DNA of 64,000 nt from Candidatus Hydrogenedentota bacterium (lineage in GTDB: Bacteria; UBA8481; J006): positions 1 to 64,000 of the forward strand of contig RFFU01000002.1 in the NCBI GenBank assembly GCA_003697085.1. Reading direction: 5' to 3'. How positions within the stretch are numbered: position 1 is the first letter of the stretch; every line of letters begins with the position of its first letter. The position numbers and the translations under genes were made by a program. This document shows positions 1,869 through 33,600 of this stretch, piece after piece. Under the pieces are notes generated by a model, which was not told where the DNA came from, made no database searches, and was given only the letters and a program-made list of their open reading frames with translations.

Positions 1869-2636
1869 TTAGAGATCCAGGCGTTTGAATAGCGGCTCCG
1901 GAATCCAACGAATGGCGGTCATGATCGGTTTCCAAAACCACGGCGTGTAAACTTCCTCGGGACCGCTTTCGAAGGAACGAAGAATGTCCGGTGCGATTTG
2001 CTTGGGTTCCACCGCGAGTGGTTTCCTCGCCAGGTTTTCGGTCATTGGTGTCAGAATGAACCCCGGCTTGATGGCGACGACTCGGACTCCCGCGGAATGG
2101 AGTCGATGGCGAAGCCCCTGCAGAAAAACGGTCAGTCCCGCCTTGGCGCTGCCGTACACGTAATTGCTTTTCCGTCCTCGGTCACCGGCCACGCTTGTGA
2201 TCACCGCGATCGTGCCCCGCCTTTGTTTTTCGAAGCGGTTGGCAAGAAGAGTGAGTAGAGAAACAGCGGAAGTGAAGTTCGTTTGAAGAACCTTTTCGGC
2301 TTCCTTCGGATCTTCGACAACACGTGACGGGTCACCGAGAATTCCGTGGGCAAGGAAAGCGATATCGAATTCACCAAAGGTAGCGAAGGCTTCGGAGACG
2401 AGATCGGAATGTCTCGCCGTCTTGGTCAGATCGAGGCATCGTGTCTCGACGCGGGCGGCTCCGCGCGTGCTCAAATCGGCTGCGACGCGATCGAGCCGTT
2501 GTGCGTTCCGGGCGACGAGAAAGAACGAGGCGGAATCAGCGGCGAGCCGACGGCATACGGGAAGGGCGATCGCCGAGGTTGCACCGCAGACGAAGAGGCG
2601 CTTGCCTTTCTCGGCGGGAAAAGACGAGTCCGTCAC
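1869..2636 (-). CDS. dprE2: DprE2-like short-chain dehydrogenase/reductase
   Basis: This is a 255-residue classical SDR. It has an N-terminal nucleotide-binding segment (CGATSAIALPVCRRLA), the catalytic Ser in VITSVAGDRGR and the YxxxK pair in YVYGSAKAG. DprE2 reduces the 2-keto intermediate made by DprE1 to give polyprenyl-phosphoryl-beta-D-arabinofuranose. The assignment rests on the gene starting inside the end of the DprE1-like gene (ATGA overlap at 2633-2636), the same order as in actinobacteria, and on overall resemblance. Alone it could be called only a generic SDR. It is probably a membrane-associated cytoplasmic enzyme. Confidence 0.8.
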   Translation of the reverse strand: MTDSSFPAEKGKRLFVCGATSAIALPVCRRLAADSASFFLVARNAQRLDRVAADLSTRGAARVETRCLDLTKTARHSDLVSEAFATFGEFDIAFLAHGILGDPSRVVEDPKEAEKVLQTNFTSAVSLLTLLANRFEKQRRGTIAVITSVAGDRGRKSNYVYGSAKAGLTVFLQGLRHRLHSAGVRVVAIKPGFILTPMTENLARKPLAVEPKQIAPDILRSFESGPEEVYTPWFWKPIMTAIRWIPEPLFKRLDL

Positions 2637-4006
2637 GGCGAGGTCAAACCGATACGGTCGGAGAAGCGGGAGGCAAAGAGAGGATCGATGTGTTCTCGGA
2701 AGAGGGAATGGTTGGGGAAGGAGTGCCGGAAAAGCGAAGGGGACATACGGGCGTCCTTGGCCGGATAAAGGGCTCCGCCCGATTCGAGGACGATTTGGTC
2801 GATTCGTTCCATCAAGTCGAGAGTGTGGGGGGGGATGTTCGGGAAATCAAGTGCTACGGTGATCCCCGCGCGAGGAAAGGAGAGATAACCGGTGGGGTTT
2901 TTCGAGCCGAAGCGCTTGAGGACGGTGAGAAAGGAGCGTATCGGAGCGTCGAAAAGAACCTTTTCCAACTTCTCCAGAGCGCTCGACGCTTTCGCTTCGG
3001 GAAAGACCGCCTGGTATTGGAAAAATCCTTTCGGGCCATAGAGCAGATTCCAGTTTTCGATATGGTCCAGGGGGAAGAAGAAGGGATCGAAGTGGACGAG
3101 GCCGTTTTCCTTAGAGGAGAGTCTTGTGTGAAGGGTCAGTGAGTTGTAGAGGCTGAGACCGATTTCGGAAAGACAGCGGAGGGGGGGGCGGAAGGGAATT
3201 GTTCCCACATTAGTCGGGGCCCTTTCGAATCGTGCACGCGTGGAGGGGATATCAGCGGTTTCGCGTCCCCGGATAAAGACCCCTCGACCGAAGAGTTTTG
3301 GAGATCGCGATGCCCAGTCGATCCAAGAAACCGTGTACGGCCATTCTTCTGAGGAGGAGCGATCGAGGTCGAGGAAGGTTTCGAGCGAGGAGAAGGGAAT
3401 ATGTTCCTGGAGGAGCCAGGAAGAAGGTATTCGGCGCAGCCGGAAAGTCACGTCCTGGATCAGACCCGTCAGACCGAGGCCTCCGATGGTGGCTCGGAAA
3501 AGGTGGGGGTTCGTTTGAGGTGAAGTTTCGATCGTTCTTCCGTGATGGCGCAATGTAAGAGAAAGAACGTGATTTCCGAAGGAACCGTCCTTGTGGTGGT
3601 TTTTGCCGTGAATGTCATTCGCCACGGCTCCACCGACGGTTATTCCTTTCGTGCCGGGAACGACCGGTGGAAAGAATCCGCGCGGTACGAGGAAGTCGAG
3701 AAGGGCACTGAAACGAAGGCCGGCTTCACAAGTCAGGACCATCGCTTCCGGATCGAAATGAAGGATTCGATCCAGGGAGCGGCAGTCGAGGGCCGTTCCT
3801 TTTTCGCGGGGCAGGCAAACATCTCCGTAACTCCGTCGTTCGCCGACGGCAAGACACGAGGAGGATTCGGTGTGCCATTCCTCATCCACCCAACGGAGTC
3901 GGCGAAGGTGACAACGGGACCGGATCGTTCGCCCCCAAGATTCGAGTGACGTCAACACGAATTCGTTTTTAGCATTCGAAAGACGGCAACTCAAGGCTGG
4001 AAGCAT
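2633..4006 (-). CDS. dprE1: DprE1-like FAD-dependent oxidoreductase
   Basis: This 457-residue flavoprotein has a PCMH-type FAD-binding N-terminus (GERRSYGDVCLP near residues 55-67; VPGTKGITVGGAVANDIHGK near 116-135) and a substrate domain ending in the LYPAKDAR segment. The Lys in that segment (about residue 417) matches catalytic Lys418 of mycobacterial DprE1. The enzyme family oxidises polyprenyl-phosphoryl-ribose at C2'. The position equivalent to Cys387, the covalent target of benzothiazinones, is Ala385 here (GITVALDFP against GWNICVDFP). No convincing ribosome binding site precedes the ATG at 4006; a GTG at 3958 is an alternative start. It is coupled to DprE2 downstream. Confidence 0.85.
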   Translation of the reverse strand: MLPALSCRLSNAKNEFVLTSLESWGRTIRSRCHLRRLRWVDEEWHTESSSCLAVGERRSYGDVCLPREKGTALDCRSLDRILHFDPEAMVLTCEAGLRFSALLDFLVPRGFFPPVVPGTKGITVGGAVANDIHGKNHHKDGSFGNHVLSLTLRHHGRTIETSPQTNPHLFRATIGGLGLTGLIQDVTFRLRRIPSSWLLQEHIPFSSLETFLDLDRSSSEEWPYTVSWIDWASRSPKLFGRGVFIRGRETADIPSTRARFERAPTNVGTIPFRPPLRCLSEIGLSLYNSLTLHTRLSSKENGLVHFDPFFFPLDHIENWNLLYGPKGFFQYQAVFPEAKASSALEKLEKVLFDAPIRSFLTVLKRFGSKNPTGYLSFPRAGITVALDFPNIPPHTLDLMERIDQIVLESGGALYPAKDARMSPSLFRHSFPNHSLFREHIDPLFASRFSDRIGLTSP

Positions 4007-4257: not shown

Positions 4258-6606
4258 TTAAAGAAATGAGCATTCGACGAAGACAGTGTCTTTTTCCCGT
4301 CGTTCGGAAATGCCGACATCTCTTTCGTTGTCGGCTCTTCGGAAGTGAATCCGATACGTGTCTCCTCGGAAACGCCTTATGACGCGGTATTCCTTCCAAT
4401 CCCTCGGAACTTTCGGTTCGAAACGAAGACCGTCGAAGTCCGCCTTGACCCCGAGGAATTCGTCATAGGCGGCGCGCAGGAACCAGGCCACATTTCCGGT
4501 GAACCACGAAAAGAAGTTCTGTCCGAAGCGGGGATGGCCGGGGCCGCAGTAGAAGTTGCCGGTGCAATAGGGTTCACTTGTCCGTCGCGCATCGAAATTC
4601 TCGGGATTGGTCGGAAGAATCCGCCGGAAGAGATCATAGGCCCGTTCTCCGCGACCGGCGGAAAGTTCCGCGAAGATCTGAAAAGCGACGGCATGTTGAT
4701 ACACGGACCCGTTCTCGAATGTCCCCGGTTCCAATCGTGCGATGCGGCCGACTTCGTCCCCCTCCTCGACGTACGGTGGAGCCAGAAGTGCGGCCCCAAG
4801 CGGCGTCTGCAGATGACGATCAATCGAAGCGAAGATTTTTCGCCGTTTTTCCTCGTCCGCCAGTCCGGTAAAGATGGCCCACGTCTGTGCGTTTAGATGA
4901 ATTCGGCCCTCTTTATTTTTGTGCGAGCCGATCGGCCGGCCGCTTCCCGTGAAGCCGTAAAGGTACCATTCGCCGTCCCAGGCGTGATCGTTGAGAGCCT
5001 GCTTCAATTCCGCGGAACGCCGTCGATATTTCTCGGCTTTAGAGCGGTCTCCGATACGATCCATTAAATCCGCGTAGAGGTTTTGAGCGTGAAAGAGCGC
5101 GATCGTCAACCAAGCTGAGACGGCATCGCCGTCCCGGCTGATCCCCTCCAGGGCATCGTTCCAGTCCCCCTCGCCCGTCAGGCAAAGACCGTAACGCCCG
5201 CGTCTTTCGTAAAGGAGATCGAGGACGCGTTCGACGTGGCGAGAGACGGACTCCGGTTTCGGGTCATCGAGGTAGGGCAGGGGCTCCTCCAGCAACGAGA
5301 AGTCTCCCGTCTCCTTGATCAGATCGAGAAGAGCCCAGGGGATCCAAGTTCCGGAATCCATGAAGAGCCGGAAATCGTGCGGATGGTTCGGACCGAACTT
5401 GGAGAAGTTCCGCGGGCACCGTCCGTCCCGGAGGACGTGTCGGAGGACGAGCAGTAATCGTTCGCGAGCGATTTCCGGTTCCAATAACGTGTAACCCCAA
5501 GCATCCTGTATCGTATCGCGGAAGCCCCAATGGCCCGACCGAGCGTAATGGAAAGTGAGATGAAGTTGGTTTTTAAACCAGACGTTGAGAAAACGAGAGA
5601 GGTTCTTGTCCGGAAGTTCGACGGAGGGGTATTGAATGCGTGTGTTCCAAAAATTTTCGAGATTCCGCCTTTCTTTCCCATAGGTATCGGGGGCGAAATA
5701 ACGGGTACGAAGAACCTCGATTTCCGACGAAGATTCAGTCGCTCCAAGGAAAAAACGTAGGGTTCGTTCTTCTTTTGGGCCTAGGGAAATGTGATCCTCG
5801 AGTCTGGCGTGGGGAAAAAGAAATTCGCGGCCCCGCGTTCCCGCGACGATTTCGGGAGTCACAGAGGTGTTCCGGAGATCGGGAGAGAGGAAGAAGGAAA
5901 AAAGTTCCACGGGAAGTTCGTCGTTGTTTGTGTAGAGGGAACAGCAGTGAGGACTTGTGGAGGTCGTCTGGTGGCGTCCCGGCGTAGAAATGTAGGGGAT
6001 CCCTTCTTCGGCCGTATGGATTCCGAAATGAGCACAACTCCAGATGATCTCCGCGGCTATCCGGAATGCCTTCCGGGAATCGGTGGTATTGCGAACGTGC
6101 AATTCATGACATTCTCCCGGGTCGGTACGAGGAACGAAGAGGGTCCATGAAAAGTGAATCCCGTCATGTTCCGTTTCCAGAGTTGTGAACCCCGGCCGGT
6201 GAGTGCATTTGAGGGAAGGGCCGGAGGAGGTGAAGAGGTCGAGCCACTCTCCGTTCTCTTTTCGATACAAAATCCGTCGCCCATCCCGAAACTCCCGAGG
6301 GAGATAATCAATCGGGTGATCGTAACGCGTGATACGCAAGAGAGTCGTCTTGTAAAACGAGAAGCCGAGTCCTTTGTTCGAGACGACAGCGCCAAATCGA
6401 TCGTTACAGAGGTAATTGAGCCAGGGGCGGGGAGTCTCGGGATTCGTGATCTCATAAGCGGATGTTTCATCGAGGAAGTGCCCGTATCTCTTTTTCGCGG
6501 CGTAGTAATCCGCGGTTGAAACCCAGTACGGAAACGTATCGCAGTCATATTGTGGTCGCGAGTCGTTTTTTGAACATTCAGTCTTGGACCGAAATTTTTT
6601 TTTCAT
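4258..6606 (-). CDS. GH94 family glycoside phosphorylase (cellobiose/chitobiose phosphorylase-like)
   Basis: This protein of about 782 residues carries the GH94 signatures: an N-terminal beta-sandwich region, an alpha/alpha barrel with TGEGDWNDALEG holding the general-acid Asp, and the conserved C-terminal segments SEPYCTGNFYCGP and SWFTGNVAWFLRA. The family cleaves beta-linked disaccharides or oligosaccharides with phosphate to give a sugar 1-phosphate. The exact substrate cannot be read here. The ATG at 6606 was chosen because TGGAG lies about 9 bases upstream; a longer frame to 6750 would run through the tRNA-Glu gene. The gene stands alone and may be served by the tRNA promoter. Confidence 0.85.
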   Translation of the reverse strand: MKKKFRSKTECSKNDSRPQYDCDTFPYWVSTADYYAAKKRYGHFLDETSAYEITNPETPRPWLNYLCNDRFGAVVSNKGLGFSFYKTTLLRITRYDHPIDYLPREFRDGRRILYRKENGEWLDLFTSSGPSLKCTHRPGFTTLETEHDGIHFSWTLFVPRTDPGECHELHVRNTTDSRKAFRIAAEIIWSCAHFGIHTAEEGIPYISTPGRHQTTSTSPHCCSLYTNNDELPVELFSFFLSPDLRNTSVTPEIVAGTRGREFLFPHARLEDHISLGPKEERTLRFFLGATESSSEIEVLRTRYFAPDTYGKERRNLENFWNTRIQYPSVELPDKNLSRFLNVWFKNQLHLTFHYARSGHWGFRDTIQDAWGYTLLEPEIARERLLLVLRHVLRDGRCPRNFSKFGPNHPHDFRLFMDSGTWIPWALLDLIKETGDFSLLEEPLPYLDDPKPESVSRHVERVLDLLYERRGRYGLCLTGEGDWNDALEGISRDGDAVSAWLTIALFHAQNLYADLMDRIGDRSKAEKYRRRSAELKQALNDHAWDGEWYLYGFTGSGRPIGSHKNKEGRIHLNAQTWAIFTGLADEEKRRKIFASIDRHLQTPLGAALLAPPYVEEGDEVGRIARLEPGTFENGSVYQHAVAFQIFAELSAGRGERAYDLFRRILPTNPENFDARRTSEPYCTGNFYCGPGHPRFGQNFFSWFTGNVAWFLRAAYDEFLGVKADFDGLRFEPKVPRDWKEYRVIRRFRGDTYRIHFRRADNERDVGISERREKDTVFVECSFL

Positions 6607-6656
6607 CGAAAACATCTCCAGAGGGAAATTCAAATTTTGGAGTTTGCCGAAAGATT

Positions 6657-6728
6657 TGGCCCCACGGGGAATCGAACCCCGATTACCAGATTGAGAATCT
6701 GGCGTCCTAACCGTTAGACGATGGGGCC
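6657..6728 (-). tRNA. tRNA-Glu (CTC)
   Basis: A full cloverleaf reads on the minus strand. The acceptor stem GGCCCCA pairs with TGGGGCC, the anticodon loop is TTCTCAA with anticodon CTC, and the T arm contains GGTTCGATTCC. It is 72 nt long with discriminator base A, and CCA is not encoded. It decodes GAG. Confidence 0.95.
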
Positions 6729-6746
6729 GTACGAGTGAACGGGGAG

Positions 6747-6775
6747 ACAATGGCTGTAATAAGGGATTTTGTCAA
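6747..6775 (-). promoter_or_regulatory. sigma70-type promoter for tRNA-Glu
   Basis: On the minus strand a consensus -35 TTGACA (6775-6770) is followed after 17 bases by CATTGT (6752-6747), a weak -10. Transcription would begin about 10-15 bases before the tRNA 5' end. Confidence 0.5.
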
Positions 6776-7101
6776 GGCAAAAACCAACCACGGAAGACGT
6801 GGAAGAGGAGGGGAATTATGGAAGACACGGAAGACACGGAAAAAAGAAAGGCAAAAGTCAAAAGGGAAAAGTGAAAAGGTGGAGTGCAGGCATCTTGCCT
6901 GCGAAAGAACGGCGCGGCATTCCGAAGGAATTCGGCAAAGAAACGAAAAACGGTGGACGAAGAACGGTAAACGAAAGGATCACGGAAGCCACGGAATGAC
7001 ACGGGGAGGGGAGGGGAACTACGGAACACTCGGAATGCACGGAAGGGAAGCGACCACGGGAAACGTGGTAGGAACGGGAGGAGGAAAACCTCCTGTCCGG
7101 A
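6776..7101. repeat. Mosaic spacer repeats between tRNA-Glu and atpH
   Basis: No gene is seen in this 326-base spacer. It is built from short degenerate repeats: CACGGAA units (6789-6840 and 6981-7060), a GGCAAAAGTCAAAAGGG run (about 6849-6870), a palindrome GCAGGC-ATCTT-GCCTGC (about 6886-6902), and ACGGTAAACGAA-type units (about 6943-6977). The same modules recur at 8.7 kb and 33.2-33.5 kb. A small inverted repeat AGGAGG-TTTT-CCTCC lies just past the atpH stop and might act as a weak terminator. Confidence 0.75.
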
Positions 7102-17539: not shown

Positions 17540-17944
17540 ATGAAAGAAGAGATTCTGGAAGCGGTAAAGGCGGTCTTTCTCCCGGAATTGGAGAAATTCG
17601 GGGAGCGTCTGTCCGGTATCGAGGGTATTCTGGGCGAGATGTCGGCGCGGCTTACCGACATCAATCAACACATTATACGTCTTGATAAACGTATCGATGG
17701 GACAAACTCCCGGATCGACGAAACGAACGCCCGGATCGACGAAACGAACGCCCGGATCGACGAAACGAACTCCCGGATCGACGAACTTGAACGATCAATG
17801 ATTGCGCGAATCGATAAGTTGAACACGAGGATCGATCGGCTTTATGAGGTGATCGTCAGGCGGGAAGAGCATGAGCGACTTTCTATTGAGGTCGAGGCGC
17901 TCAGGAAGGATGTCGAAGAGCTGAAACGAAAAAGGGCCGTCTGA
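17540..17944 (+). CDS. Small coiled-coil protein with heptad repeats
   Basis: This 134-residue hydrophilic protein has an N-terminal helix (EEILEAVKAVFLPELEKFGERL) and a central array of five near-identical 7-residue units of the type RIDETNA (about residues 51-85), then a charged coiled coil. Each unit equals one heptad, so the array should form a regular coiled coil. No enzymatic motif is seen. No ribosome binding site precedes the ATG, and a promoter lies immediately upstream, consistent with leaderless translation. Similar small coiled-coil proteins accompany diverse systems, so no role is proposed. Confidence 0.7.
   Translation: MKEEILEAVKAVFLPELEKFGERLSGIEGILGEMSARLTDINQHIIRLDKRIDGTNSRIDETNARIDETNARIDETNSRIDELERSMIARIDKLNTRIDRLYEVIVRREEHERLSIEVEALRKDVEELKRKRAV
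17690..17794 (+). repeat. Five in-frame 21-bp tandem repeats
   Basis: Five 21-base units of the form CGGATCGACGAAACGAACKCC run in frame within the coiled-coil gene and encode RID(E/G)TN(A/S) heptads; the last diverges to RIDELER. Units two to four are almost identical, which indicates recent expansion and possible length variation between strains. Confidence 0.9.
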
Positions 17945-18302: not shown

Positions 18303-19241
18303 ATGAACTATCTCGTAACCGGGGGCGCGGGTTTTATCGGGTCGAATATCGTAAGGCGCCTTCTCGAAGAGGAACATTCCGTAACGGTGCTCGACGATTT
18401 TTCCACGGGATTTCGGAGAAACATCGAACCTTATGCTGATCGGGTCCGCGTTGTCGAAGGCGGGGTCGAGGATGAGGAAGTGGTTGACGAATTGGTAGAA
18501 GGGCTCGATGGAATCTTCCACCAGGCGGCCATCCCCTCGGTCCCCCGATCCATCCGAGACCCGTTGAAGACGCATAGGGCCATCGTTAACGGAAGCCTGG
18601 TTCTTTTCGACAAGGTTCGCCTAAGGAATCCGAAATGTCGAATCGTGATGGCCAGCTCCTCGTCCATTTACGGCGAAGGGGAGGGGCTGCCCAAGGTAGA
18701 GACGATGCGTCCTTTGCCTCTTTCCCCCTACGCGGCGGCGAAATTGGTAACGGAAGAGTACGCCCGTGTCTATGCGGAACTCTACGGCATTTCAATCGTC
18801 GCCCTGCGGTATTTCAACGTTTTCGGGCCGCGGCAGGATCCGAGTTCGGAGTACGCGGCCGTGATACCGAAATTTGTGACGGCCGCCTTGAACGGGGAAA
18901 CGCCGACGGTGTACGGTGACGGTTTGCAGACACGCGATTTCACGTACGTCGAGAACGTTGTTGAGGCGAATCTGGCGGCTATGCACAGTGACCTTTCTTT
19001 TTCAATCATGAACATCGCCGCCGGGGAACAAATCTCACTGTTGGATCTTCTGGATACCTTGGCGGAGATCGTGGGGAGGGAGATCAAGCCGCGGTTCGCT
19101 CCGGCGCGGCCCGGCGACATACGCCATTCGTATGCTTCGATCGAGAAAGCGGGACGCGAGATCGGGTATCGGCCGCGCGTTTCCTTCCGCGAAGGCCTTG
19201 AAAAAACGGTCACCTATTTCCGAGACGGAGAAGCATCGTGA
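18303..19241 (+). CDS. NAD-dependent nucleotide-sugar epimerase (UDP-GlcNAc/UDP-glucose 4-epimerase type)
   Basis: This 312-residue extended SDR has TGGAGFIGSNIVRRLL for NAD binding, the catalytic ASSSSIYGEG and PYAAAKLVTEEY (YxxxK), and ALRYFNVFGPRQDPSSEYAAVIPKF, a segment often seen in WbpP-type UDP-HexNAc 4-epimerases. The exact sugar cannot be settled from sequence. It starts an operon of sugar-nucleotide genes; its last codons overlap the next start (19238-19241). Products would feed glycan assembly by the WecA-like transferase downstream. Confidence 0.85.
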   Translation: MNYLVTGGAGFIGSNIVRRLLEEEHSVTVLDDFSTGFRRNIEPYADRVRVVEGGVEDEEVVDELVEGLDGIFHQAAIPSVPRSIRDPLKTHRAIVNGSLVLFDKVRLRNPKCRIVMASSSSIYGEGEGLPKVETMRPLPLSPYAAAKLVTEEYARVYAELYGISIVALRYFNVFGPRQDPSSEYAAVIPKFVTAALNGETPTVYGDGLQTRDFTYVENVVEANLAAMHSDLSFSIMNIAAGEQISLLDLLDTLAEIVGREIKPRFAPARPGDIRHSYASIEKAGREIGYRPRVSFREGLEKTVTYFRDGEAS

Positions 19242-20197
19242 GGGTTTTGATAACGGGAGGAGCCGGTTTCATCGGCAGTCATCTCGCGGACGTTCACATC
19301 GATCGCGGAGACGAGGTGACGGTTCTCGACGATTTCTCGACGGGACAAGCCGCGAACATCGAGCATCTTGAGACACACCCTCGTTTTCGACTGATTGTGG
19401 GTTCGGTTCTGAACAGAAGTCTTCTCGGGGAAGCGATGGCGGGTTGCGATCGGATCTATCATCTCGCAGCCGCCGTCGGAGTGAAGTACATCATCGATCA
19501 TCCGTTGCACAGTCTGCGCGTCAACATCCTGGGGACCGAGACCGTACTCGATCTCGCCAACGAGCGGAAGATCCCCGTTTATATCGCTTCGACGTCGGAG
19601 GTTTACGGGAAAACAGAGAAGATTCCGTTTTCGGAAGGGGACGATCGAGTATTGGGCTCGACACGAGTGAGCCGGTGGGGATACGCGAACACGAAAGCGA
19701 CGGACGAGTTCCTTTCGCTGGCGTATTACCGAGAAAAGGGTCTTCCCGTGATCATTGGCCGGTTTTTCAACACGGTGGGGCCGAGGCAATCGGGCCGGTA
19801 CGGGATGGTGATTCCTCGTTTCGTCAAGGCGGCCCTTCTGGGTCATCCTCTGACCGTTTTCGGAACGGGCGAACAGACGAGGTGTTTTCTCGACGTGGAA
19901 GATGCGGTTCGCTTTGTTCTTGCTCTTTTTGATTCAGGGAATGCCTTCGGAGACGTCTTCAATATCGGTTCGACGGAACGAATCTCGATTCTGGATCTGG
20001 CCTATAAGGTCAAGGAGATGACGGGAAGTTCTTCGGAGATCGAATTCGTTCCGTACGAGAAGGCGTACGAGCAAGGGTTCGAGGATATGCTGCACCGCGT
20101 ACCGGATATGACGAAATTCGAGAATGCTGTCGGTTTGAAACCGAAGTATTCGCTGGAAGAGATACTCGGACGCGTGATCGAATATTACAGACGATAG
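19238..20197 (+). CDS. NAD-dependent epimerase/dehydratase (extended SDR)
   Basis: This 319-residue extended SDR has [28 protein letters not shown] and WGYANTKATDEF with the YxxxK pair, and IIGRFFNTVGPRQSGRYGMVIPRF. It resembles UDP-glucose epimerase / UDP-glucuronate decarboxylase-like proteins of surface-polysaccharide clusters. The substrate is unassigned. Its GTG start overlaps the stop of the preceding epimerase gene by 4 bases, so the two are translationally coupled and may act in sequence. Confidence 0.8.
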   Translation: MRVLITGGAGFIGSHLADVHIDRGDEVTVLDDFSTGQAANIEHLETHPRFRLIVGSVLNRSLLGEAMAGCDRIYHLAAAVGVKYIIDHPLHSLRVNILGTETVLDLANERKIPVYIASTSEVYGKTEKIPFSEGDDRVLGSTRVSRWGYANTKATDEFLSLAYYREKGLPVIIGRFFNTVGPRQSGRYGMVIPRFVKAALLGHPLTVFGTGEQTRCFLDVEDAVRFVLALFDSGNAFGDVFNIGSTERISILDLAYKVKEMTGSSSEIEFVPYEKAYEQGFEDMLHRVPDMTKFENAVGLKPKYSLEEILGRVIEYYRR

Positions 20198-20209
20198 GAA
20201 GGGGAAGAG

Positions 20210-21535
20210 ATGAGCTCGGGAAAAAGGGTGCGGAGGAAGAAAACGCACCGGGAACGGAGTTTTCAGAAGAAAGTCGTCGGTGTCGTGGGGATGGGATATG
20301 TGGGAGTTCCTCTGGCGGTGACGTTCGGCGAGGCGGGGCATCGGGTTGTCGGGTTTGATATCAATGAACAACGTGTCGGCCGCCTGAACGCTGGAGAGGA
20401 TGTCATTCTTGACGTTCCGCGGGGGGCGGTGAAGAGATTGAGACGCGCGAAACGGTTTCGCGCCACGACAAGATTTTCGGCGGTAAGGGAGTGTGACGCC
20501 GTCATCTTTTGTGTCCCGACTCCGTTGGATGAGCATAAGCAGCCGGATCTCGGACCGGTGAAAAGTGCGGTGGAGGCGGTGGTTCCCTTCCTGCGCCGGG
20601 GGCAGGTTTTGGTCTTGGAGTCCACGACGTTTCCAGGGACGACGACGGAGATCATCAAGCCGCGCATTGAGCGGGCCGGCTGGAGGATCGGAAGGGATAT
20701 TTTCCTCGGTTTTTCCCCCGAGCGGGTGGACCCGGGAAATCCGCGTTTTCACACGAAAAACACTCCGAAGATCATTTCGGGGGTTACGGCGGAATGTCTC
20801 CGGCGGGTACGGGCCTTGTATTCCGGAGTCGTGGAAAAATTGGTGGAGGTATCCCGTCCCGAGGCGGCGGAGATGGCGAAACTCCTCGAGAATATCTTTC
20901 GGAATGTGAATATCGCCTTGGTGAACGAACTGATGCTCCTTTGTGATCGTATGGGGCTCGATATTTGGGAAGTCATCGACGCGGCGGGGACGAAACCCTT
21001 CGGATTTATGCCGTTTTACCCGGGGCCGGGTGTAGGCGGTCACTGTATTCCGATCGATCCGTTTTATCTTTCGTGGAAGGCGCGGGAATACGATTTCTTT
21101 ACGGATTTCATAATCCTTTCGGCGGAGGTGAACGACAACATACCGTATTTCGTGGTGGAAAAGACGGTTCGGGAGGCGAACGCGCGGCTGGGGGTCGCGA
21201 TCAGGGGCTTGAGGGTTTTGGTGATCGGCGTGGCCTTCAAACCGAACATAGACGATCCCCGGAATTCACCCGCCGAGAAGATCATCGCGGGACTCGGGAA
21301 ACGGGGAGCGCGGGTCTCGTATCACGATCCCTACGTGCCGCTTTTTCGGGTCGGGGAGAAGACGTTCCGTTCCGTTTCCTTGGCGTCCCGGACGGCTCGC
21401 GAGGCGGACGTGGTGATTATTCACACGAATCATGCCGGAATCGACTGGCGGGAGATCGCGCGGAGAGCGCCCTTGGTGATCGACACGCGCAACGCGACGA
21501 AGGGCCTGCGCCGCCGAAACATCGTGAGGATTTGA
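20210..21535 (+). CDS. Nucleotide-sugar dehydrogenase (UDP-HexNAc 6-dehydrogenase type)
   Basis: This 441-residue enzyme carries the Rossmann motif GMGYVGVPLAVTFGEAGH after a basic 20-residue N-terminal tail, the PTPLDEHKQPDL segment, the catalytic Cys in GPGVGGHCIPIDPFYL, and FKPNIDDPRNSPAEKI. PLDEHKQPDL and GGHCIPIDP place it with WbpA/TviB/WecC dehydrogenases that make uronic acids from UDP-HexNAc, rather than with UDP-glucose dehydrogenase at 13.5 kb. It follows the two epimerases by 12 bases with GGAAGGGGAAGAG as ribosome binding site. Confidence 0.87.
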   Translation: MSSGKRVRRKKTHRERSFQKKVVGVVGMGYVGVPLAVTFGEAGHRVVGFDINEQRVGRLNAGEDVILDVPRGAVKRLRRAKRFRATTRFSAVRECDAVIFCVPTPLDEHKQPDLGPVKSAVEAVVPFLRRGQVLVLESTTFPGTTTEIIKPRIERAGWRIGRDIFLGFSPERVDPGNPRFHTKNTPKIISGVTAECLRRVRALYSGVVEKLVEVSRPEAAEMAKLLENIFRNVNIALVNELMLLCDRMGLDIWEVIDAAGTKPFGFMPFYPGPGVGGHCIPIDPFYLSWKAREYDFFTDFIILSAEVNDNIPYFVVEKTVREANARLGVAIRGLRVLVIGVAFKPNIDDPRNSPAEKIIAGLGKRGARVSYHDPYVPLFRVGEKTFRSVSLASRTAREADVVIIHTNHAGIDWREIARRAPLVIDTRNATKGLRRRNIVRI

Positions 21536-21606
21536 AAATGTCGTGTCGGAGGGGCGTCTCGATAATGACCGCTCGATCATCATAAGAGTACCAAGAGAAG
21601 ATCACG

Positions 21607-22698
21607 ATGAGCGAAATCTTGATGGTTGCCGTCGCAGCGCTTTTGGTTTCCACGGTGATTTCCGCGGCCGCCGTTCCGCTGGCTTCTTCCCTTGCAACGC
21701 GTTTCGGGATCGTCGATCGACCCAACGCCCGCAAGGTCCACACGGTCCCGACTCCGATGTTGGGCGGTCTGGCGGTGCTGCTGGGATATCTCGTCGCGGC
21801 TCTCGGAGCCTACACCTGGGCGATGGGGGCTCACTGGGAGAAATTTCGTCCCTTTCAAGGAATTCTTCTGGGCAGCCTGTTCATCTTTCTCATCGGTGTC
21901 TACGATGATGTCCGCGGTGTGTCCCCTCGAGGAAAACTTGTGGGACAATTATTGGCGGCTCTTCTTCTGATCGGATTCGAGATACGACTCAGCCTCTTTC
22001 TTCAGCAAAATTTTCTGACCACCTTGATCACGATCCTCTGGATCGTCGGGATCATCAATTCCTTCAACCTTCTCGATAATATGAACGGGTTGTCGGCGGG
22101 AGTCGGGACGATCGCGGCCGTTACGTTTGCCTGGATTGCGTACAATCAAGAGGATTTTCTTGTCCTCATCATCGCTGCTTCGCTTGCCGGGGCTCTTTTG
22201 GGATTTCTTCCGTACAATTTTCCGAAAGGGAGGATTTTTTTGGGCGACGGCGGGTCGCTTTTGATCGGATTCGTTCTTGCGGCGGTTTCCGTTCAGGGAA
22301 TCTATCTGGCGAAAACGAAATTGACACATCTGCCGGTCATTACACCGGTGCTCGTTCTCGGCGTTCCTCTCTTTGATACGTTTTCAGTAATGGCGATCCG
22401 TTTTGCGCGAGGATTACCGATCTTCAAGGCCGATAAAAACCACTTCTCTCATCGCCTCGTCGATCTTGGAATGACCCAAAAGCAGGCGGTTCTTCTGATC
22501 TACCTCGTCTCCATCGCGGTCTCGATCCCCGCCGTGCTTCTCTCCCACGTCACGCTTAACGACGCTTTGCTCCTTCTGCTTCAGGAAGCCATCCTGTTCT
22601 TCATTATCGCCGCGCTGATGCGGTACGGGATGGTGCGCGCGGAAAGCCGCTCTCTCGGCGAACCGGAACCGAACCACTCGGGAGACAGGAGCCGGTGA
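21607..22698 (+). CDS. WecA/TagO-like polyprenyl-phosphate sugar-1-phosphate transferase
   Basis: This 363-residue integral membrane protein of the MraY/WecA family shows the conserved cytoplasmic loops: NARKVHTVPTPMLGG, GVYDDVRGVSPRGKL, FNLLDNMNGLSAGV, RIFLGDGGSLLIGF, and the His-containing loop FKADKNHFSHRLVDLG. It transfers a HexNAc-1-phosphate (or similar) to undecaprenyl phosphate to start glycan assembly. It is coupled to the downstream prenyltransferase gene by an overlap at 22695-22698. Sugar specificity is not readable. Confidence 0.9.
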   Translation: MSEILMVAVAALLVSTVISAAAVPLASSLATRFGIVDRPNARKVHTVPTPMLGGLAVLLGYLVAALGAYTWAMGAHWEKFRPFQGILLGSLFIFLIGVYDDVRGVSPRGKLVGQLLAALLLIGFEIRLSLFLQQNFLTTLITILWIVGIINSFNLLDNMNGLSAGVGTIAAVTFAWIAYNQEDFLVLIIAASLAGALLGFLPYNFPKGRIFLGDGGSLLIGFVLAAVSVQGIYLAKTKLTHLPVITPVLVLGVPLFDTFSVMAIRFARGLPIFKADKNHFSHRLVDLGMTQKQAVLLIYLVSIAVSIPAVLLSHVTLNDALLLLLQEAILFFIIAALMRYGMVRAESRSLGEPEPNHSGDRSR

Positions 22699-23615
22699 CG
22701 CCGGTGCGTTGCTGGTTTGATTTGATCAGGGTCCGCCAATGGACGAAAAATCTCCTTGTTTTTGTTCCGCTCTTTTTTGCGGGGCGTTTTCTCGAGAAGG
22801 AGGCGATCCTTTCGGAGATTCTGCTCTTCTTTCTCTTCAGTCTGCTTTCGAGCGGAGTGTACATCATCAATGATCTTCATGATCTCGAAAGAGACCGCCG
22901 CCATCCGCTGAAACGTCGTCGTCCCTTGGTGCGAGGATCAATTTCCCCGGCGGCAGCCGCCGGGGCGGCCTTTTTTTTCATCCTCTTCTCCTGTGGAATC
23001 GCGATTTCGCTTCTTCCTCCCGGGACCATCGTTCTTTTGGCTTCCTATCTTCTCCTACAGGTGCTCTACAATCTCCTGTTTCGGGAGCGCGCGGGAGCGG
23101 ACGTGATCGTGATCGGCCTCGGCTTCGTCCTTCGGGCCGCGGCCGGTGCCGTCACGATCGGCGTACCCGCTTCCGCCTGGTTGATCCTCTGTACCTTCTT
23201 CGGTGCCGTACGGCTGGCTCTGGGGAAGCGACAGGCGGAACTTTTTGGAGGAAAAACCGGTTTTCGTCCTGGCTGGGAAAGTGTCTCACCACAAACACTC
23301 CATCTCTCCGGAGCCCTTTCGAGTGCCGTGCTGCTCTTCAGTTATCTCTCCTATTGCATCTTTTCCGCGACGGCCCGCAGGATCGGCATTCTCGACCTCG
23401 GGCGATTGTTGAGCGATTTTCCACCCTTTCTGCTTGCCGTTCCACCGGCCTTCTTCGGAGTACTCCGGTATGAAATCCTGGCTGCTTCCGGACGAGCGGG
23501 AGAACCGGAGGCTTTGATCTTTCGGGATGCGGAACTCTTCGGGGCTCTCTTCGTCTGGATTCTGATCAATCTCGTTGTTTTGGCTCTCACTTGGTCCGGG
23601 GGGATCGGGCGATGA
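22695..23615 (+). CDS. UbiA-family polyprenyl-phosphate phosphoribosyltransferase-like protein
   Basis: This 306-residue membrane protein begins FDLIRVRQWTKNLLVFVPLFFAG, typical of decaprenyl-phosphate phosphoribosyltransferases (Rv3806c type). The Mg2+/substrate motif is NDLHDLERDRRHPLKRRRPL (NDxxDxxxD), followed by about nine hydrophobic helices. That family adds 5-phosphoribose to polyprenyl phosphate, the step before DprE1/DprE2. With the DprE1/E2 genes at 1.9-4 kb it would complete a polyprenyl-phosphoryl-arabinose route apart from the 5-phosphatase, which was not found. Its stop overlaps a tiny ATGA-started frame. Confidence 0.82.
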   Translation: MTPVRCWFDLIRVRQWTKNLLVFVPLFFAGRFLEKEAILSEILLFFLFSLLSSGVYIINDLHDLERDRRHPLKRRRPLVRGSISPAAAAGAAFFFILFSCGIAISLLPPGTIVLLASYLLLQVLYNLLFRERAGADVIVIGLGFVLRAAAGAVTIGVPASAWLILCTFFGAVRLALGKRQAELFGGKTGFRPGWESVSPQTLHLSGALSSAVLLFSYLSYCIFSATARRIGILDLGRLLSDFPPFLLAVPPAFFGVLRYEILAASGRAGEPEALIFRDAELFGALFVWILINLVVLALTWSGGIGR

Positions 23616-23676
23616 GGAATGGCGAAGACGCGGGGCGGGAATACGGCCTAGAAGACGATCCAAGCGGGGAAAGATC

Positions 23677-24771
23677 GTGAAGGCGAGCGGAAGGAGAAGA
23701 ACATGGACGGATCCACGCGTTCTTCTCGGTATCGCGATTTCGCTAATTGCGATCTGGTGGACGTTTCGCGATGCCGATTTTTCTGCAGTGGGAGGAGAAC
23801 TGGCGCACCTGCGATGGAGATTTCTTTTTGGTGCCTTTCCGCTTTATTTCCTCTCCCTTCTTCTTCGCGGTTATCGCTGGACCTACTTTATCCCTCGCGA
23901 CAATTCCTCCCTCAGGAATCGGTACAACGCCTGCGTGATCGGATTTCTCGCAACCAACCTTTTTCCACTGCGCGTGGGCGAAATCGTGAGGGCTTTTGTT
24001 TTCGCGCGCAGAAGCGGCCGGAGGCTCATCGAGATTCTTGCGACGATCGTGACGGAGCGCATCTTCGACCTTATTTCGCTTCTGATTCTGGCGATCGTCA
24101 GTTTTCCGTTCATTCCGCTGGACCGGATCGCCGCGGAGCTCGGAGCCGATTCCCTCTTCGCGCTCGGCAGAGGTCGGTTGATGGGCTTTGCGGCGGCTTT
24201 GGCTGGCGGCCTGTTGATTGCGTTTATTCTTTTTTGTCTCTTTGGTCGGAGCGTTTTGACATTTCTTCTGGCCCGCCTCCATTGGGAAGGAGGGCGGTTG
24301 GCTCGGTTCCTCAATACGCTTCTCGATGGGCTCGAAACGCCGGTCAAAGAACGGACGCTCTTCAAGGTTCTTCTTTGGAGTGTCGGGATTTGGTTCCTAA
24401 TCTGTCTCACGTATTGGGTGACACTATACTCCGTTCCCGTACCGGTACACGGCTCCTTGGCCCAAATCGTGGGGTTATCCGGCGCGATTTTTATGCAGGT
24501 CGTCATCTGCGCCGGCATCGCCCTTCCCTCCGCTCCCGGTTTCATCGGTGTCTGGCATGCGGCGACCCGTGTCGCCTTCATTCCGTTTCTCGATTCCGCG
24601 CCCGACCTCGAGAGTAAGATCCTCGCTTATGCGGTCGTTGCCCACCTCTATTCTTATCTTCTCACGATTGCCTGCGGATTGGAGGCGTTCGTCAACGAGG
24701 GAATGCGATGGAGCGAGATGCGGGACGTGAGTGAGGGAGGCGACGAAGGAGACGGGGGAGAGCGGAGATGA
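23677..24771 (+). CDS. Lysylphosphatidylglycerol-synthase-type membrane protein (UPF0104, flippase-like)
   Basis: This protein of about 364 residues has about eight membrane helices and the LPG_synthase_TM family pattern: RWRFLFGAFPLYFLSLLLRG, LFPLRVGEIVRAFVFARRSG, TERIFDLISL and SAPGFIGVWHAA. Family members lack the aminoacyl-transfer domain and are suspected of moving lipids or lipid-linked sugars across the membrane, which fits its place after the WecA- and UbiA-type genes. The GTG at 23677 has GGGGAAAG upstream and overlaps the stop of a 22-codon frame; extension to 23575 would overlap the upstream gene. Confidence 0.8.
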   Translation: MKASGRRRTWTDPRVLLGIAISLIAIWWTFRDADFSAVGGELAHLRWRFLFGAFPLYFLSLLLRGYRWTYFIPRDNSSLRNRYNACVIGFLATNLFPLRVGEIVRAFVFARRSGRRLIEILATIVTERIFDLISLLILAIVSFPFIPLDRIAAELGADSLFALGRGRLMGFAAALAGGLLIAFILFCLFGRSVLTFLLARLHWEGGRLARFLNTLLDGLETPVKERTLFKVLLWSVGIWFLICLTYWVTLYSVPVPVHGSLAQIVGLSGAIFMQVVICAGIALPSAPGFIGVWHAATRVAFIPFLDSAPDLESKILAYAVVAHLYSYLLTIACGLEAFVNEGMRWSEMRDVSEGGDEGDGGERR

Positions 24772-25520
24772 AGATCAGCACCGTCTCGGTTTCCGTTCCC
24801 GTATCGGGGCTCCAGAGGAGGGTCTCGATCGGGTTTGCTTCGGATTTCCACATTCGCCGGAAGAAAGAGATCCCCGCGATCATCGAGGCGCTGGAACGCC
24901 TAGACACGGATTGCCTGCTTCTGGGAGGGGATTACTGCGAAGAGGCCGATCTGGTGGAGCCGTTTTTCGCCGAGGTGACGGAATTGAAGCGCCGGGCCTT
25001 CGCCGTCTGGGGGAACAACGATCTTCCCTTCGAGAGGGAGTTGTTGCGGGCCGGACGGCGGTGGAGAGAGGATGATCCGGAGGAGGGAAGGGTTTGCTGG
25101 CTTTTCGACGACCTTCTTCGGCGCGAGGGCTATTTCTTGGCTGGTCTGTCGCATCTGAAGCGGCCCGATCTTCCTGAAAACCGGCTCGTTTTTTCTCAAC
25201 GCCCCTTACTGATTCTTGCTCATACTCCCGACGCGATTCTTCGCCTCAGCAAGACGGAGGACGTGACGCTGTTGGCCGGGCATTCGCATGGAGGTCAAGT
25301 GCGGCTTCCGTTTGTTCCTTGGTGGTGGTCTCACACGAAACTCGGGTATCGCCATGGGGAAGGTCTGTCGCGTAGGGGAAGAAATGTACTTTTCGTGGGA
25401 AGAGGAATCGGGTGTTCGATGTTCGAGATTCGAAATGTTCCGCGTGAGGTGTATCGGATCACGCTGGTGCCGGAGGGGGAATGGGAGAGGGACGGGAAGG
25501 GAGACGGAGGCGGAAGTTGA
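24768..25520 (+). CDS. Calcineurin-like metallophosphoesterase (YkuE type)
   Basis: This 250-residue protein has the two-metal phosphoesterase motifs: ASDFHIRR (DxH), LLLGGDYCE (GDx), WGNNDLPF (GNND), ILAHTPD and AGHSHGGQVRLP (GHxH). It resembles YkuE/LpxG-like enzymes that act on lipid-linked or nucleotide substrates at the membrane; the substrate is not determined. Its ATG overlaps the stop of the flippase-like gene (ATGA at 24768-24771) and its own stop overlaps the next start, so it belongs to the same transcriptional unit. Confidence 0.85.
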   Translation: MKISTVSVSVPVSGLQRRVSIGFASDFHIRRKKEIPAIIEALERLDTDCLLLGGDYCEEADLVEPFFAEVTELKRRAFAVWGNNDLPFERELLRAGRRWREDDPEEGRVCWLFDDLLRREGYFLAGLSHLKRPDLPENRLVFSQRPLLILAHTPDAILRLSKTEDVTLLAGHSHGGQVRLPFVPWWWSHTKLGYRHGEGLSRRGRNVLFVGRGIGCSMFEIRNVPREVYRITLVPEGEWERDGKGDGGGS

Positions 25521-33152: not shown

Positions 33153-33600
33153 GACCGCGAACCACGGAGCACACGGAAAAAGGGAAAGGCAAAAGTCAAA
33201 AGGAAGAAGGCAAAAAGCAAAAGGGAACAGAAGATGTAGCGATCAGTCATCGGTTACCGTTCACCGTTTATCGTTTAACGTTTCAAACTCACCGATCGAT
33301 GTCCAAGGATGAAAAACGGATAACGGTAAACGAAGAACGGTGAACGAAAAAAAACCACGGAAGAGACGGAAAAAAGAAAGGAAAAATTCAAAAGCAAAAG
33401 GCAAAAGGAAAAAGAGAAAGGCAGAAGCCAAAAGGGAAAGGGCAAAAGGAAGAGGGCGAGGGCAAGAAGGGGAAGTCCTGGGAGTGCCGGCATCTTGCTT
33501 CCTCCCTGCGGGCCTGGCCGCTCGCCTCGCGCGGCTTCCGTGCCGCGCGTTCCGCTTGTGCGGAAACGGCTCACGCCCGTTTGAATCCCGACATTTCAAA
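33153..33600. repeat. Mosaic spacer repeats upstream of the tRNA-Asp hairpin
   Basis: No gene is seen. The spacer contains CACGGA units (33160-33180), GGCAAAAGTCAAAAGG-type runs (33185-33225 and 33372-33440), ACGGTAAACGAA/GTTTACCGTT units in both orientations (33251-33350), and GTGCCGGCATCTTGC (about 33484-33498). An inverted repeat of GCGCGGC lies near 33527. The same modules occur at 6.8-7.06 kb. Confidence 0.7.

Follow-up and report, generated by a model that had tools for sequence, protein, structure and literature searches.

An alanine at the benzothiazinone position of a DprE1-like oxidase from Candidatus Hydrogenedentota is the usual bacterial residue

The DprE1-like gene and its product

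The window analysed here, a stretch of 64,000 nucleotides from a Candidatus Hydrogenedentota bacterium (contig RFFU01000002.1), carries near its start an intact open reading frame for a DprE1-like FAD oxidase, which is followed by a gene for a DprE2-like short-chain reductase (Table 1). The ATG at 4006 is the earliest possible start of the oxidase gene, and the true start may be internal. A phmmer search of the PDB aligned residues 19-452 of the protein with DprE1 of Mycobacterium tuberculosis (4fdn, E 2.9e-58), and likeness over the whole length was found to nine distinct solved DprE1 sequences (E 2.8e-58 to 2.9e-53). The NCBIfam equivalog for decaprenylphosphoryl-beta-D-ribose oxidase (NF053785) gave 303.7 bits, and the protein is not filed under this model because its score lies under the cut-off of 500. 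All five non-actinobacterial relatives that were scanned also scored below the cut-off (343.7 to 399.8 bits), and all three actinobacterial relatives scanned scored above it (691 to 797 bits), two of these with Ala at the drug position described below.

Table 1. Coordinates of the DprE1-like gene, its key residues and genes of the putative arabinose pathway in the window
Feature	Position	Strand	Basis
DprE2-like short-chain reductase, 255 aa	1869..2636	-	4 bp overlap with DprE1-like gene; NCBIfam
DprE1-like FAD oxidase, 457 aa, intact ORF	2633..4006	-	Homology, NCBIfam, model fold
Lys417, at catalytic Lys418 position of M. tuberculosis DprE1	2756..2758	-	Alignment; coordinates by ORF arithmetic
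Ala385 (GCA codon), at Cys387 position of M. tuberculosis DprE1	2852..2854	-	ORF and alignments
His133, at His132 position of M. tuberculosis DprE1	3608..3610	-	Alignment; coordinates by ORF arithmetic
UbiA-family, decaprenyl-phosphate phosphoribosyltransferase-like protein, 306 aa	22695..23615	+	PDB match, motif
LPG_synthase_TM membrane protein, 398 aa, candidate flippase	23575..24771	+	Position; TIGR00374 39.8 bits (cut-off 43.2)
Calcineurin-like phosphoesterase, 250 aa, candidate 5'-phosphatase	24768..25520	+	Position only

An AlphaFold2 model of the oxidase, built from an alignment of the window protein with 29 named relatives, had a mean pLDDT of 88.2, and the fold that it predicts is that of DprE1. 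When the model was compared with the PDB using Foldseek, 49 of the 50 best rows were DprE1, with four row titles (4pfa, 4pfd) giving only organism and ligand. In a second structural comparison (VIA), rows 1-31 of the best 50 were mycobacterial DprE1; the best match had a Z score of 47.2 and an rmsd of 2.1 over 404 residues at ~32% identity, and the next family followed at Z 36.0. Assignment of the protein to the DprE1 family of oxidases is therefore supported by its sequence, its fold, its aligned His and Lys and its DprE2-like partner. A search for phage relatives of the protein found none.

Several further features were noted in the window. A gene for a GH94-type protein (Pfam Glyco_hydro_94, E 1.3e-85) at 4258-6750 immediately precedes the DprE1-like gene and is read from the same strand. 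Two A-/G-rich repeats that resemble each other (CACGGAAGACACGGAAAAAAGAAAGG...) lie 26 kb apart at 6826-6876 and 33163-33446, and 17690-17794 is a tandem repeat with a 21-bp step, in which four overlapping 42-nt copies were listed.

Ala385 and the distribution of Cys387

In M. tuberculosis DprE1, Cys387 makes the benzothiazinone adduct and is dispensable for activity, according to passages of PMC6128881. The initial annotation had placed an Ala at the equivalent position and described the catalytic Lys as retained, and both statements were borne out. The phmmer alignment sets GITVALDFP over GWNICVDFP with no gap, so that Ala385 falls on a Cys that is residue 407 in the chain numbering of 4fdn and becomes Cys387 after subtraction of a 20-residue tag, whose length was deduced from chains of 481 and 461 residues. 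The Ala/Cys387 column was the same in separate MAFFT alignments of the window protein with the closest relative examined and DprE1, of 121 rows and of 213 rows; a better alignment that would place a Cys at the drug site was looked for and not found, as every alignment kept this column. The Cys residues of the window protein (positions 7, 32, 51, 64, 75, 93 and 278) all lie away from the drug column, and residues 381-389 form a strand in the AlphaFold2 model.

The residue at this position was then read in five sets of relatives, which were not sampled at random. Set A, the 80 top-ranking relatives among 583 from named genomes, had Ala in 76 rows and Thr in four, while among the 33 matches listed at E <= 1e-60 in a domain-wide sample of 386 genomes (set B, window excluded) there were 30 with Ala, two with Thr and one with Ser. 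Six plasmid loci picked from 123 records (set C) had Cys in Rhodococcus, Nocardia and Tsukamurella and Ala in the remaining three. The actinobacterial phylum (set D) was represented by 296 genomes, 44 of which had a match at E 1e-40, in 45 places, 44 of them newly read; outside one family, f254, these gave 30 Ala, six Thr and no Cys (n=36). Family f254 itself (set E) comprised 251 genomes, 246 of them with a match, from which 48 further loci were read, 28 among the best places and 20 picked by hand, giving 37 Cys and 11 Ala. We infer that f254 corresponds to Mycobacteriaceae in the GTDB sense, because its sequences lie close to DprE1 of M. tuberculosis and share their clade with three named plasmid loci of Mycobacteriales. 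Overall, the 151 rows outside f254 and its named relatives (the window not counted) comprised 138 Ala, 12 Thr, one Ser and no Cys, and the 61 rows inside the mycobacterial-type family, M. tuberculosis included, comprised 48 Cys and 13 Ala. One of the 36 actinobacterial rows outside f254 has Gln at the Lys418 position.

Passages of earlier work describe the Cys as highly conserved in various Actinobacteria (PMC3206020) and as conserved across the species compared with the exception of M. avium (PMC3035642), and a Ser is given for a second DprE1 of Nocardia brasiliensis (PMC4608729). The first of these statements, as far as it is set out in that source, contrasts with the absence of Cys from all 36 actinobacterial rows outside f254.

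A FastTree tree of the DprE1 relatives, built with the residue-387 column removed, united all 48 Cys rows in one clade with a support of 100, the sister of which comprises further actinobacteria, every one of them with Ala or Thr. Fitch parsimony placed Cys at the root of this clade with four changes to Ala inside it, where some inner branches are weakly supported. Scored as Cys against not-Cys, the whole tree required five changes, compared with 39 to 47 in 20 shuffles of the labels. Given the survey counts and this single Cys clade with so few changes, Ala is the default of the family and Cys most likely a derived state, as far as the sequences sampled here can tell.

The rest of the drug pocket was compared using the 14 inhibitor contacts of Table 2 of PMC6128881, 12 of which are identical in the window protein. 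The two that changed are Ser228, replaced by Val226, and Asn385, replaced by Thr383; Tyr314, which is absent from that table, is replaced by Phe310. The pocket thus differs beyond Cys387. Each of Ser228, Asn385 and Tyr314 is present in 61 of 61 mycobacterial-type rows, the 13 Ala rows included, whereas outside that family these positions are mostly Val, Thr and Phe. The window protein shares Ala at the drug position with the M. avium and M. abscessus enzymes, as described in passages of PMC3206020 and PMC9765218, but, unlike the 13 of 13 Ala rows of the mycobacterial clade, it does not keep Ser228 and Asn385, and the pocket around Ala385 thus differs from that of those 13 rows. In sum, it resembles M. 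tuberculosis DprE1 (Rv3790; 4fdn, 6hez) in homology over its whole length, fold, the residues aligned with His132 and Lys418 and the 12 shared contacts, and differs from it in four residues (Ala for Cys387, Thr for Asn385, Val for Ser228 and Phe for Tyr314), in an identity of only ~32% and in a score under the NCBIfam cut-off.

A different Cys of the window protein, Cys64 (3815-3817), lies two residues past an RSYGD motif. It is found in 73 of the 80 named rows, in eight of 32 rows of the domain-wide sample and in none of the 36 other actinobacterial rows; 59 of the 61 mycobacterial-type rows have Ala there. Cys64 was considered as a substitute for the drug-site Cys and rejected, since it is out of alignment with the drug column.

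Neighbouring genes and a predicted arabinose pathway

The DprE2-like protein scored 210.5 bits (E 3.1e-62) against the DprE2 equivalog NF053786, below its cut-off of 250, and 296.5 bits against the short-chain reductase model PRK07102, above its cut-off of 267. Approximately 19 kb from this pair, on the opposite strand and in a separate cluster, lies the gene for a UbiA-family protein whose only PDB matches were the DPPR synthases 8j8j and 8j8k (best E 1.3e-30). It scored 173.3 bits against the equivalog PRK12324.1-4 (cut-off 207) and contains the motif N59-D60-x2-D63-x3-D67 (NDxxDxxxD), residues that matter for synthase activity according to passages of PMC11127046. This motif, together with likeness to the Rv3806c-type DPPR synthase, identifies it as a putative homologue of decaprenyl-phosphate phosphoribosyltransferase. 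The two genes that follow are candidates for a flippase and a 5'-phosphatase. The wider region (18303-25520), which encodes sugar-nucleotide epimerases, a dehydrogenase, a GT4 (WecA-like) protein, the UbiA protein, the flippase-like protein and the phosphoesterase, looks like a set of surface-glycan genes.

A DprE2-like protein is encoded in the relatives' loci in 75 of 80 cases in set A, 31 of 33 in set B and six of six in set C, and a UbiA-like protein in 69 of 80, 13 of 33 and three of six, respectively. The other genome examined from the phylum also has a DprE1/E2 pair; a search of that genome, which is 86% complete, returned no convincing DPPR synthase (best E 3e-4). A GtrA flippase was found in neither of the two genomes examined from the phylum, and their 14 and 16 matches to PMT_2 (GT-C-like) include none tied to arabinose.

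Passages of PMC11127046 associate homologues of DprE1 and DprE2, when accompanied by a PPPR synthase, with glycans containing arabinofuranose in other bacteria, so a pathway of this kind outside mycobacteria is already known. As in the Gram-negative polyprenyl-P-pentofuranose systems described there, a UbiA-type synthase and a DprE1/E2-like pair occur in one genome; unlike in those systems, as far as they are described in these passages, the synthase here is encoded far from the pair and has no fused phosphatase domain by Pfam. On the basis of the overlapping DprE2-like gene, the DPPR-synthase-like UbiA protein and this published association, the DprE1-like protein is predicted most likely to act in the synthesis of lipid-linked arabinose, at the step that oxidises C2'. 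In such a pathway, the 5'-phosphate would be taken off by a phosphatase, with the calcineurin-like protein as a candidate, C2' of polyprenyl-phospho-ribofuranose would be oxidised by the DprE1-like enzyme using FAD, and the DprE2-like reductase would reduce the resulting 2'-keto group to give the arabino form. The predicted product, polyprenyl-phospho-arabinofuranose, would be the lipid-linked donor for a surface glycan.

Alternative readings and the meaning of Ala385

Taken jointly, these results are best explained by a gene for the oxidase half of a polyprenyl-phospho-ribose 2'-epimerase in which Ala385 is an ordinary ancestral residue, a reading to which we assign a probability of about 0.85. 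Were the protein instead a DprE1-fold oxidase acting on another lipid-linked or free pentose, the comparison with the drug target would be structural only. Its score under the curated DprE1 cut-off would be in keeping with this, as would a fold that is common to alditol and lactone oxidases, but the five non-actinobacterial relatives scanned fall under the same cut-off, the catalytic residues and most drug contacts are kept, and a DprE2-like reductase is encoded by an overlapping gene, in a genome that also encodes a DPPR-synthase-like protein; a different pentose is thus unlikely.

Far less credible still is the proposal of real natural resistance, in which Ala385 would have been selected as an adaptation to a benzothiazinone-like or nitro-aromatic compound occurring in nature. 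There is precedent for a link between the residue and the drug: passages of PMC3206020 attribute natural benzothiazinone resistance to the residues found in M. avium (Ala) and M. aurum (Ser), and those of PMC9765218 report that M. abscessus has Ala and that covalent benzothiazinones are inactive, while a non-covalent inhibitor works. The association of Ala with insensitivity is therefore already known for M. avium and M. abscessus. Against an adaptive origin in the present lineage, however, the great majority of relatives outside the mycobacterial-type family have Ala and none has Cys, parsimony makes Cys the later state, and no trace of a loss of Cys is seen, the closest relative examined, by taxonomy, having Thr. 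Sister lineages with Cys, which would favour an adaptive change, did not turn up among the sequences read. As Ala is the default in both the survey and the tree, this proposal was rejected.

The natural benzothiazinone tolerance predicted in the initial annotation stands insofar as Ala leaves the drug site with no thiol, where, by the known mechanism, a covalent adduct would be unable to form. It finds no support as a notable trait, given that 0 of 151 outside relatives have Cys, and tolerance, as anticipated from the residue, would be true only trivially. Because Ala or Thr is normal in all relatives read outside the mycobacterial-type family, Ala385 is uninformative on drug exposure or resistance. 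The observation is correct but ordinary: Ala is the usual bacterial residue, and Cys is special to the tuberculosis bacterium's own group.

For the organism, these results would extend the likely range of the lipid-linked arabinose pathway to a little-sampled phylum, represented here by two genomes. For the family, they turn the question around, as it is the presence of Cys in mycobacteria that needs explaining and not its loss. Cys387 is probably a novelty of single origin in the Mycobacteriaceae-like clade, acquired in a pocket that was also remodelled at three positions (Val to Ser228, Phe to Tyr314 and Thr to Asn385), with Cys alone having reverted approximately four times. A literature search of listings and passages, which cannot prove absence, found no statement that Cys387 is derived. 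If this history is true, the known naturally insensitive mycobacteria would represent returns to the ancestral residue, while the window protein would show the unremodelled state. The covalent action of benzothiazinones depends on a pocket Cys that a single bacterial clade carries and that is non-essential, as passages of PMC6128881 indicate, and a non-essential Cys confined to one clade would fit both the narrow spectrum of these drugs and a target site that may be cheaply lost.
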